Below are positions 46,178 through 49,181 of a stretch of DNA of 64,000 nt, in pieces; position 1 is the first letter of the stretch, and every line of letters starts with the position of its first letter. The stretch lies in NCBI RefSeq assembly GCF_000221185.1, contig NC_015865.1, forward strand, positions 124,001-188,000, read 5' to 3'. A model generated the notes under the pieces. That model did not search any database. It saw nothing but the letters and a program-made list of their open reading frames with translations, and had not been told where the DNA came from. A program made the translations under genes and the position numbers. This stretch comes from Thermococcus sp. 4557 (lineage in GTDB: Archaea; Methanobacteriota_B; Thermococci; Thermococcales; Thermococcaceae).

Positions 46178-47578
46178 TCATTCTGAGAGCCTTGTGTTCT
46201 GGGCGTTGTGGGCTTCGAGCTCCTCTAGATCCCATACCAGCCAGGTTTCCTTCTTTAAAGCCTCCTTCCCTTCAACTCTCTTGGCAATCAGCCCGTAGGA
46301 TTTCTCCCAGCCTTCAAGCCCAACCAGCTCTGCTTTCCGCTCCAAGTCCTTCAAAATCCCTCTAGCTTCCCTCTCCCCCAGCTCCTTCCACTTCACCTCA
46401 ACGAAGAGAGCCCTCTTTTCCCGTTCGTTCAAAGCGATGAGGTCAATCTCTTCGCCCTTATGCCACCACCTGCCTATTTTCGTAAACCTGAAAGGCAGCT
46501 TTCCCTTTTTGTTAAGCCTGATTAGAAACTCCCTCCCAATCTCCTCGAAAACCCAGCCAAGGTATTCGTTCAGGTCCTCCATCACAAGCTCCACCAAAAA
46601 ATCGCCCTGTCCGGTCTCTATCAAATCCACGTTCGGGTGGACGTAGCGGAACCAGAAGGCAAAGTAGGGGTCCGCTATATAGTACCGTCCCTTCCGGCTT
46701 TTCCTGCTAGCGGTAACCGGAACTTCCCTCCTCACAAAACCGAGATCCGTCAGAATGCTGAGGTACTTGGCAACAGTGCCGCGCTCAAGCCCCGTCTCGT
46801 TCATTATCTCGCCGAGCGTCGTCTTTCCACCCGCCACCGCTTCCATCACCGCGAAGTAGTTCCTCGGTTCTTCAAGCTCCTCCATGAGGACGAAGCGAGC
46901 ATCGCCATACAGGAAGGAATCCGGGCGGAAATAATTCCTAAGGTTTTCCTCGATGCCTTTCGAGTCCTCGAACTCTAAGAGATAAGCTGGCGTCCCTCCG
47001 AGGATTCCGTAGGCCTTCACGAACTCCTCAAGCGAGTATCCCGGTAGAAACTCCCTCGCCTCGAAAAAGCCCAGCGGATTAATTTTAAGCTGAGCGGTTC
47101 TCCGCCCATAGAGCGGACTCTTGTAGCCGAGCAGTTTCTCCATCATTGAGACGCTTGACCCGCAGATTACGAGGAAGATTTGACTTTTGGAAAGCTTTAA
47201 ATCCCAGTACTCTTGGAGGATGGAGGGCAAGGCAGGGTTGGCCTTCACGAGATATGGAAACTCGTCGATGACGACGGCAAGTCTTTCATGGCTTTTCTGA
47301 ACCAAATACTCGAAAAAGGCGTCCCAGCTCTGGAAGGGATTTTTGGCAAGAAACTCGTCGTTGAAGTGCTCGGCAAGCCTCTGGGAGAAACGTTTGAGGT
47401 TTTCAGTTTCGCTAGTTTCCCTCGCGAGGAGGTAGATTCCGCTGTTCCTCCTCAGGAACTCGAGGAGGAGTGCCGTTTTTCCAACCCTTCGCCTTCCGTA
47501 AACGACTGTGAACTCGGCCTTTCCCTTTCTGAGTCTCTCTTCGAGCAGGCCAAGTTCGGCCCTCCTGTTGATGAACAT
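46178..47578 (-). CDS. Archaeal ATPase with DUF234 nuclease-like C terminus
   Basis: A 466-aa AAA/STAND-like ATPase of the archaeal MJ/PH family. Walker A is GRRRVGKTALL (about 28-38) and Walker B LAVVIDEFPYL (about 100-110), followed by FLVICGSSVSMM (sensor) and a winged-helix segment (TLGEIMNETGLERGTVAKYL). The C-terminal DUF234 domain has E-E-I-D-L-I...FVEVKWK, a PD-(D/E)XK nuclease signature. The ATG at 47578 has GGTGAG six bases upstream. A palindrome lies on its promoter. The role of this abundant family is not established; conflict or mobile-element functions have been proposed. Confidence 0.88.
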   Translation of the reverse strand: MFINRRAELGLLEERLRKGKAEFTVVYGRRRVGKTALLLEFLRRNSGIYLLARETSETENLKRFSQRLAEHFNDEFLAKNPFQSWDAFFEYLVQKSHERLAVVIDEFPYLVKANPALPSILQEYWDLKLSKSQIFLVICGSSVSMMEKLLGYKSPLYGRRTAQLKINPLGFFEAREFLPGYSLEEFVKAYGILGGTPAYLLEFEDSKGIEENLRNYFRPDSFLYGDARFVLMEELEEPRNYFAVMEAVAGGKTTLGEIMNETGLERGTVAKYLSILTDLGFVRREVPVTASRKSRKGRYYIADPYFAFWFRYVHPNVDLIETGQGDFLVELVMEDLNEYLGWVFEEIGREFLIRLNKKGKLPFRFTKIGRWWHKGEEIDLIALNEREKRALFVEVKWKELGEREARGILKDLERKAELVGLEGWEKSYGLIAKRVEGKEALKKETWLVWDLEELEAHNAQNTRLSE

Positions 47579-47620
47579 AATTTACTCACCAGTAATTTAC
47601 TTGCAAGTAAATTATTTAAA
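47578..47620 (-). promoter_or_regulatory. Promoter with 22-bp palindrome and extra half-site (DUF234 ATPase)
   Basis: A perfect palindrome, TAATTTACTTGC followed by AAGTAAATTA, occupies 47593-47614. An extra direct half-site TAATTTACT (47578-47586) overlaps the start codon. On the minus strand the TATA element TTTAAATA (47613-47620) abuts the palindrome, whose far end lies at the expected transcript start. A protein bound here would block the promoter. Confidence 0.7.
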
Positions 47621-47692: not shown

Positions 47693-48121
47693 TCAACCTT
47701 TGATCTCGAACTCCACGCTCGCGTTCCTACAGCCGGCGAAAGGGCCGCAGATTTCCTTGACGAGCCTGTACCTGCCGGGAGGAAGGTCAGGGTAGGGACG
47801 GGGCTCCCCAGGGGATTCATTTTCCGGCAGGTATTTCAGGGTAACGCCCTGCCTCCAGGAGTGAAACGGCGGGAGGTCGTAGAGCATGTCGATGAAGATA
47901 AAGGGAGTTCTTACTCCAACCCAGCTCCCGTTCTCCCACCGGTAGATGAGGTAGCCCTGGCCGAAGTAGACGGGCGTTAGGCCGACGTTCCTTATCGTCA
48001 GTTTCGGCTCCTCTCCGGGGGAATACGTGGACTTGTCGGGGCTCATCATGAAGTGGGGGCCGGTGAGTCCCCAGAGGAGGAGCATCAGGACGACGATTCC
48101 GGCGCCGGTCTTCCACCTCAT
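47693..48121 (-). CDS. Secreted Ig-like protein, copy 3 of a tandem family
   Basis: A 142-aa protein with an N-terminal membrane anchor or signal (GAGIVVLMLLLWGLTGPHF) and an immunoglobulin-like beta sandwich. The family pattern is DKSTYSPGEEPKLTIRNVG ... GYLIYRWENGSWVGV ... LPPGRYRLVKEICGP ... FEIKG. It matches the two proteins encoded just upstream. The ATG overlaps the stop of the preceding copy. Two cysteines (ICGPFAGC) may form a disulphide. Function unknown; the fold resembles intracellular-proteinase-inhibitor-like Ig domains. Confidence 0.8.
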   Translation of the reverse strand: MRWKTGAGIVVLMLLLWGLTGPHFMMSPDKSTYSPGEEPKLTIRNVGLTPVYFGQGYLIYRWENGSWVGVRTPFIFIDMLYDLPPFHSWRQGVTLKYLPENESPGEPRPYPDLPPGRYRLVKEICGPFAGCRNASVEFEIKG

Positions 48122-48588
48122 CCGACCACCTCGAACTCCGCCGAGAGAATTATCTCGTCACTCCTGCCCCCACAGCGCCCTCTGTCGATGATGACGGTCT
48201 TCGTAATCATGTACCTGCCGGGCGGCAACGGTTCAAGCTTCCTGGCACCGTCAGAAACGTGTGTAGCGAGGGGCACGGTTTGGCTCCAGTTGCCGCCGGA
48301 AGGTATCGTGTAGCCTATACCAGTGAACGAGAACCCGAGGTTGAGTTCTTCCCATCCTCCGTTTTCTAGGCGGTAGAGCCTGTACGAGGCACCCACGAGT
48401 AAGGTCTCGCTCCCGGTGTTGATTATTGTGAGGGTAAGGTCCTCACCCACGCGATACGTGCCTTTGTCGAGCCTCATGAGGGCGGTTCCGGCATCGGAGT
48501 GTGTGTTTTTGGCTGTCTCACGTGTTCCGGCGTAGAGAATTCCAAGAAGGAGAACGAAGACGGCGAAAGCGGCCAGGGTCCGATTCAT
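48118..48588 (-). CDS. Secreted Ig-like protein, copy 2 of a tandem family
   Basis: A 156-aa protein: N-terminal hydrophobic anchor (LAAFAVFVLLLGILYAGT), linker, then the Ig-like domain with LDKGTYRVGEDLTLTIINTG, SYRLYRLENGGWEELNL and LPPGRYMITKTVIID. The order of strands and the E-N-G-x-W and P-P-G-R-Y marks are shared with both neighbours. Its start lies 14 bases after the stop of copy 1 and its stop overlaps the start of copy 3. Surface location expected; function unknown. Confidence 0.8.
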   Translation of the reverse strand: MNRTLAAFAVFVLLLGILYAGTRETAKNTHSDAGTALMRLDKGTYRVGEDLTLTIINTGSETLLVGASYRLYRLENGGWEELNLGFSFTGIGYTIPSGGNWSQTVPLATHVSDGARKLEPLPPGRYMITKTVIIDRGRCGGRSDEIILSAEFEVVG

Positions 48589-48601
48589 CGGCCAGCCCCC
48601 T

Positions 48602-49093
48602 TCAGCCCCTCACGTCGAACTCGGCCCACGCTTCAATCCCCATGCTCATCTTGTTCACCGGGTCGGTAACCACTACGGTTTTCTCTATCCTGTAATGGCC
48701 CGGCTCGAGGTTGAGGTGGGCCAGGTTCACCCTCTGCTCCCAGCTCTTCCCGGGCTCTATTATGACCGCAATCTCTATGAACATCAGGTTCACCGGAACC
48801 TCCTTCCACGTCCCGTTCTCCAGTTTATAGAGCCTGAAGGCGTAGCCCGTCGTGAAGTTGGCGTTTCCGTTGTTAGTTATCGTTATGACCATCGTATCTG
48901 TGGGGGAGTAGACGGTCTTGTCGAGCTTCATAGGGTTTTCAGGGGGCGTTGTAACCGCAGGTTCGTCCTTTGGGGGAAGGTCCGAGGTCCCTCCCCCGTT
49001 GGGGGAGTCACTGACGGCGTTTCCCGATGAGGCAAGGTAGTATCCAACCGGAATCAGAAGGACTATCAGCAGAACGGGAATAATCTTCCTCAC
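48602..49093 (-). CDS. Secreted Ig-like protein, copy 1 of a tandem family
   Basis: A 163-aa protein starting at a GTG (49093) with GGTGGTGCG before it. The frame extends to 49150, but the signal anchor RKIIPVLLIVLLIPVGYYLA fits the GTG start. A Pro/Gly/Ser-rich linker (NGGGTSDLPPKDEPAVTTPP) precedes the Ig-like domain: LDKTVYSPTDTMVITITNNG, AFRLYKLENGTWKEVPV and LEPGHYRIEKTVVV. It is the first gene of the three-copy operon. Cell-surface role, function unknown. Confidence 0.8.
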   Translation of the reverse strand: MRKIIPVLLIVLLIPVGYYLASSGNAVSDSPNGGGTSDLPPKDEPAVTTPPENPMKLDKTVYSPTDTMVITITNNGNANFTTGYAFRLYKLENGTWKEVPVNLMFIEIAVIIEPGKSWEQRVNLAHLNLEPGHYRIEKTVVVTDPVNKMSMGIEAWAEFDVRG

Positions 49094-49181
49094 GCCGCAC
49101 CACCAGATAAGAGTGCGCAAAAATCCTTTTAACCCTTCCCAACGCTTCAAACGGGATTGCAGCGAAAAGGAAGAAAAGAAA

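Follow-up and report, generated by a model that had tools for sequence, protein, structure and literature searches.

A four-half-site element in the promoters of DUF234 ATPase genes, most likely read by the winged helix of the ATPase itself

What reads the long palindrome in the promoter of a DUF234 ATPase gene of Thermococcus sp. 4557, and could the reader be the ATPase that the gene encodes? In the window (the whole stretch of DNA that was analysed, 64,000 nucleotides), the promoter of this minus-strand gene carries a perfect 22-bp palindrome, TAATTTACTTGCAAGTAAATTA, at 47593-47614, exactly as the original prediction had described it. It is the longest palindrome in the 64-kb window, the runner-up being 16 bp, and it occurs as a single copy in the 2,011,320-bp one-contig genome, even when three mismatches are allowed. 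By base composition, perfect palindromes of at least 22 bp are expected by chance 0.017 times per 64 kb and 0.53 times per genome, so that the length of the palindrome alone is weak evidence; the case for it rests on its position and on its conservation and relatives.

The original observation is confirmed, and it understated the element. As a whole, the element is a dyad centred on A47596 in which four A/T-rich half-sites of alternating orientation occupy ∼36 bp between the TATA box and the ATG, with the inner arms at offsets 1–5 from the centre and the outer arms at offsets ∼10–18. The palindrome comprises the left outer arm (TAATTTACT, 47606-47614, minus strand), the left inner arm and most of the right inner arm, and its 5′ end is overlapped by the TATA-like box of the ATPase promoter, TTTAAATAA (47620-47612, minus strand), whose TTTAAATA core is nearly invariant in 30 orthologues. 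The two inner half-sites form the dyad AGTAA-A-TTACT at 47591-47601, of which the fourth half-site, TTACT at 47595-47591, had previously been overlooked. The outer right half-site, AGTAAATTA (47586-47578, minus strand), is the third half-site that had been predicted at the start codon; it does overlap the A of the ATG (47578-47576), and its core is nearly invariant in orthologues. A Shine-Dalgarno-like GGTGAG lies within the element at 47585-47590 on the minus strand, and the distance from the TATA box places the predicted transcript start near 47590.

Among 30 orthologues of at least 65% identity, the TATA box and most positions of the element are identical in 26–30 of the 30, conservation being lower at the centre base, at offsets 10 and 14 and, on the sides, from offset 16 outwards. 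Further upstream, past about −32 relative to the centre, most bases are identical in just 10–17. Orthologues from public genomes retain the longer array beyond the palindrome itself. The genome of the window holds nine DUF234 genes, all chromosomal, and it had been suggested that the paralogue promoters be checked for the 16-mer of the palindrome. That 16-mer is absent from the other eight promoters and has a single copy genome-wide. The reason is that all eight paralogues carry arrays of their own in the same place, between TATA and ATG, alike in architecture and different in sequence. When whole elements were compared against dinucleotide shuffles, a long dyad was found in eight of the nine promoters at the lowest reachable p, 0.02, and in the ninth at p = 0.078. 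A search of this genome with a spaced pattern (17 fixed bases, up to three mismatches) returned only the window element, in four registers, and the element of one DUF234 paralogue. The elements of the paralogues are mostly distinct from each other; those of two of them, L003 and L004, share 18 of 22 scored bases, and cross-talk or cross-regulation between these two is possible.

Across the family, we surveyed 246 full-length DUF234 ATPase genes (kept from 251 candidates, with 15 further genes having no anchor) that came from 61 genomes of the genus, further Thermococcaceae and 28 genomes from different lineages. Clustering gave 126 groups at 80% identity and 85 groups at 70%. A significant long dyad was present in 56 of the 85 representatives at p ≤ 0.05 and in 39 at p ≤ 0.01, compared with 3 and 0 of 67 control genes of the window, for which the start was that of the longest ORF; the remaining 29 representatives had no significant dyad in this whole-element test against shuffles. 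The best dyad had on average 13.3 of 19 pairs, versus 10.4 in shuffles. By offset, complementarity among the representatives was 74–91% at 1–5 (versus 55–56% in shuffles), 40–54% at 7–9 and 71–88% at 11–16, with a baseline of about 55%. The half-site sequences themselves vary widely across lineages (AGTAA, GAGTA, GATTA, GATAAT, TTATCA and others), and the two arms of one element change together. At the outer offsets 11–16, the arms agree in 80–95% within a gene and in 28–51% when arms of different genes are paired, figures that were drawn from the 56 significant representatives only, which flatters the 80–95%. Inner and outer half-sites are also more alike within a gene than between genes (0 of 1000 permutations; 73 representatives, drawn from the 221 genes used for covariation below). 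In 118 of 176 scored genes a TATA-like sequence starts 23–25.5 bp ahead of the centre, and in 93 of 219 the ATG follows the centre at 5.5–7 bp, so that in such genes the element dictates the first codons. A simple test for a 6+6 dyad with one fixed 4-bp spacer, which kept 160 of 166 rows, was weak (fraction 0.23 of 40 representatives at p < 0.05).

DUF234 ATPases also occur on 161 plasmid records and on contigs classed as viral (18 loci, L332-L349). Seven of 13 plasmid loci reached p ≤ 0.05, those of M. jannaschii, Haloferax, Rhodothermus DSM 4252, Cetobacterium, Mesorhizobium, Phocaeicola and Vibrio, the Vibrio dyad lying far upstream; the bacterial plasmids of Rhodothermus and Mesorhizobium and the archaeal plasmid of M. 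jannaschii each gave p = 0.003. The six plasmid loci that did not reach p ≤ 0.05 were those of Haladaptatus, Selenomonas, Deinococcus, Rhizobium (0.060), Arcobacter and Rhodothermus SG0.5, the last of which is uninformative in this test as its annotated start falls inside the gene. For bacterial members the evidence for arrays is mixed, and arrays are absent or unclear in several. On the viral contigs, 5 of the 16 rows obtained from the 18 loci reached p ≤ 0.05. Exact matching of a 30-bp spaced pattern gave 0 matches to the window element in viral contigs, and the idea that viruses carry decoy copies of it found no support under this strict matching. The genome of locus L056, a Methanosarcinales MAG (G125), has 28 DUF234 matches, and head-to-tail pairs of DUF234 ATPase genes were seen at G056:C45:6984-9799, G035:C41:47756-50650 and G010:C1:609187-611932.

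The gene in the window (46178-47578, minus strand) encodes a protein of 466 aa, with its nearest relatives in Thermococcus, in which Pfam identifies ATPase_2 at residues 2–203 (PF01637, 135.5 bits, cut-off 33.2) and DUF234 at residues 309–408 (PF03008, 129.7 bits, cut-off 22.5), and whose AlphaFold model has a pLDDT of 97.2 and a pTM of 0.93. Both the winged-helix segment and the PD-(D/E)XK-like C terminus that had been predicted are borne out by Pfam and AlphaFold, the winged helix-turn-helix at residues 238–301 (codons 46676-46867, minus strand) and the nuclease-like domain at 46229-46669 on the minus strand. The latter has the core fold and the D...(D/E)xK motif of the PD-(D/E)XK superfamily, with fold matches to EndoMS, Card1 and Can2 that are weak by E-value (best 9.1e-3, probability 0.99), and its residues E377, D379, E394 and K396 are kept in 242–244 of the 246 proteins (D379 in 244, E394 in 243 and K396 in 242). 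The Walker residues K34, D105 and E106 are present in all 246 and, since Walker and nuclease residues are both conserved, the ATPase and nuclease activities are probably both in use. Residues 1–318 have the layout of SSO1545/NLR-type signalling ATPases, with an NTPase, a helical bundle and a winged helix in this order, and match the structures of PAB2304 (Z 22.3; 3.0 Å over 294), SSO1545 (Z 20.3) and RPP1 (Z 16.4); after the archaeal ATPases, the structural matches are plant NLRs and Orc/Cdc6 (Foldseek, VIA-align).

Over residues 2–398 the protein matches the PADLOC profile PDC-S27 (E 3.8e-52), which the available passages of its description present as an archaeal-enriched ATPase-PD-(D/E)XK fusion and a defence candidate, with antiviral validation pending for most PDCs (PMC12988326). 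This match to a candidate defence family supports the analogy to phage defence in the original prediction. The analogy to toxin–antitoxin control fared less well, as the gene has no partner of the kind in which a small antitoxin gene sits beside a toxin gene. Judged from the ORF list, no antitoxin-like neighbour lies on the strand, where a zinc-ribbon ORF follows the gene downstream and genes for Big_14 proteins precede it upstream; on this basis a type II toxin–antitoxin operon was rejected. The upstream neighbours, at 47693-49150 of the window, are three minus-strand genes arranged in tandem, whose small products look secreted and each have a Big_14 Ig-like domain.

In the AlphaFold model, residues 266–279 (codons 46742-46783, minus strand) form the third helix of the winged helix, its recognition helix, and it is here that protein and element vary together. 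Mutual information with background correction was calculated between protein columns and DNA offsets for the 221 of 246 genes with a good template fit (effective number 107), a choice that selects for symmetry and not for protein–DNA coupling. Out of 7,248 column–position pairs, the three strongest couplings all fall within this one helix: K271 with offset 4, I275 with offset 4 and R266 with offset 16, at ranks 1, 2 and 3. Across 111 clusters at 80% identity, K271 is accompanied by C at offset 4 in 47 of 58 cases and P271 by A in 21 of 22. When corrected for overall divergence, the 12-residue segment 265–276 ranks first of 442 in predicting element similarity, and it ranks second to third when inner and outer sites are scored apart. 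In the Thermococcaceae-only subset K271 stays at rank 1 while I275 falls to 39 and R266 to 40, and in the non-Thermococcaceae remainder I275 is at rank 2, R266 at rank 5 and K271 at rank 18. On a tree built without the winged helix there are five supported independent C/A switches, with which K271 agrees in 3.0 cases on average, disagrees in none and does not differ in two, although five switches are too few for a verdict from this independent-pairs test. The pair-contrast test was clean for offset 4 only; at the other offsets it was mostly columns outside the helix that came out on top. Residues beyond the winged helix (K112, A113, L117 and T55) were considered as readers of the outer half-sites and rejected, their signal being inseparable from shared ancestry in these data. 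From these patterns, the winged helix of the ATPase most likely reads the element of its own promoter, and we propose that helix and element diversified together, with each paralogue keeping a private element.

The architecture of the element, its conservation, the covariation of arm with arm and of protein with DNA, and its exclusivity to DUF234 promoters in the genome of the window are all direct observations. The best explanation, and in our view a likely one, is that the element serves as an operator through which the gene is repressed by its own product, the protein that reads it. Autorepression is the natural reading because a protein bound from the TATA box to the ATG should exclude polymerase. 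The ATPase would bind the four inverted half-sites through its winged helix, with residues 266–279 as the recognition helix, and four half-sites suggest that it would do so as two dimers or a tetramer. The bound protein would occupy the position of RNA polymerase between the TATA box and the transcript start or ATG, prevent transcription of the gene that encodes it and hold a possibly harmful ATPase–nuclease at low levels, until a trigger that alters its nucleotide or oligomeric state, perhaps infection, frees the DNA. Release of the DNA upon nucleotide exchange or oligomerisation after such a trigger is a speculation by analogy, drawn from the signalling-ATPase fold. As for the autorepression by the product that had been predicted originally, its autoregulatory part is strongly supported in silico by the family-wide architecture and by the covariation with the protein's own recognition helix, and from there we infer binding, its stoichiometry, repression as opposed to activation, and the trigger. 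A wider proposal, which we put forward tentatively as a possibility, is that a single protein makes up the whole defence unit, the ATPase being both the sensor and the repressor of its own gene. Throughout this large family of Archaea and Bacteria, each copy would read a private four-half-site operator with its own winged helix, operator and recognition helix having co-diversified, so that up to dozens of copies stay insulated from each other in a cell. A viral trigger would remodel the ATPase, unleashing the nuclease and lifting repression at once.

One observation counts against the ATPase as the reader of the site. The spaced pattern with at most one mismatch finds 25 sites in the 61 genus genomes, and none when the pattern is reversed; 20 of them lie before DUF234 ATPases and 5 before a carbamoyltransferase gene, as assigned partly from coordinates. 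At these five Thermococcus loci (L367, L370, L379, L381 and L386) the element directly precedes the carbamoyltransferase gene (the L367 product has Pfam Carbam_trans_N and _C) and the ATPase is absent, and at the same place in six other genomes (L111-L116) the order is element, ATPase, carbamoyltransferase. The orphan sites have kept the long dyad, with 11+2+11 bp in four of the five and a slightly shorter one in L367, and have lost the TATA-like AA. In three of the five orphan genomes (G008, G015 and G055), where six of the seven full-length copies were read, no ATPase turned up whose recognition helix matches. Either another factor uses the orphan sites or the loss of the ATPase is recent. 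Elements kept before a carbamoyltransferase gene would fit an operator read by another host regulator, with the ATPase genes among its targets, but a single regulator could not read the many different half-sites of one genome, the covariation points to the ATPase's own recognition helix, and the 25 sites stand before DUF234 ATPases or the carbamoyltransferase and nowhere else; we regard this explanation as decidedly unlikely.

Other explanations concern what the element does. Having bound it, the ATPase might activate transcription or act as a sensor on the DNA instead of repressing the gene, which we judge unlikely. MalT, an ATPase of the wider signalling-ATPase group, activates transcription. 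Activator sites usually lie upstream of TATA/BRE, and this element spans the TATA box to the ATG, where a bound protein should block polymerase. Activation would have a precedent in IniR too, an ATPase of the same wider group that activates transcription according to the available passages of its description (PMC5760070), and ATP-dependent release or bending is conceivable. Were the element to work as RNA, in a leader hairpin that hides the ribosome-binding site, the complementary arms and the overlap of its right part with the Shine-Dalgarno sequence and the ATG would be accounted for. This is hardly credible, however, for a dyad whose left half should precede the transcript start (which, judged from the position of the TATA box, should be at about the centre or beyond it), whose centre is followed by the ATG at just 5.5–7 bp in 93 of 219 genes, whose pairing reaches offset 1 (74–82%), too tight for a loop, and whose inner and outer half-sites repeat each other, as a hairpin would not need. 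It is also very improbable that the element is an origin-like or mobile-element binding site of a protein that resembles Orc1/Cdc6, itself a binder of repeats next to the gene encoding it. The Orc/Cdc6 matches in Foldseek and VIA-align and the family members on plasmids and viral contigs agree with such a role, but each gene has a single compact element, located at the core promoter in all cases, a second copy elsewhere in the window's own genome was not found, and the family has nine chromosomal copies here and up to 28 per genome.

In the open-licence literature searched, outside of which most subscription papers lie, no operator or regulation of DUF234 ATPases is described, and we did not find there a description of a signalling ATPase with a nuclease domain that represses its own gene, with private operators that have diversified along with the protein across a family. 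The DUF234 ATPases of Archaea and Bacteria that are counted as defence candidates run into the thousands, going by the PDC-S27 counts in the available passages of PMC12988326. If self-repression through the element is true, these proteins gain a directly assayable function, sequence-specific DNA binding, with specificity set by residues 266, 270, 271, 274 and 275 versus offsets 4, 11, 15 and 16. The family would then be a natural set of many orthogonal repressor–operator pairs, many of them from heat-loving hosts, and derepression of the ATPase's own promoter would suggest itself as a direct read-out for the unknown trigger.

Autorepression as such is an already known kind of control. In AbiE and other autorepressed defence or toxin–antitoxin modules, a winged-helix protein at promoter inverted repeats holds the defence gene down; the regulator in AbiE-type modules is a separate antitoxin, whereas in the window gene regulator, ATPase and nuclease would be one polypeptide. 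PDC-S27 is the same protein family as the window ATPase (PADLOC; a fusion of an ATPase with PD-(D/E)XK that is abundant in Archaea), and its description leaves operators and autoregulation unmentioned in the passages found, where antiviral activity is not validated for PDC-S27 (PMC12988326). The fold of residues 1–318 is shared with the archaeal ATPases SSO1545 and PAB2304, plant and animal NLRs, APAF-1 and CED-4. Unlike the SSO1545/PAB2304 and NLR types, the window ATPase has a nuclease-like domain at its C terminus as the effector, and its winged helix shows sequence-specific covariation with a site in the promoter. IniR and Rx1 are likewise ATPases related to SSO1545 or Cdc6/Orc1 that act on DNA, as far as the available passages of their descriptions go, IniR by binding the iniBAC promoter and Rx1 by bending DNA (PMC5760070, PMC4599002). 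By the same passages, IniR differs from the window ATPase in that its DNA-binding part is a separate C-terminal domain and in that it activates, and Rx1 differs in that its DNA binding is not operator-like.
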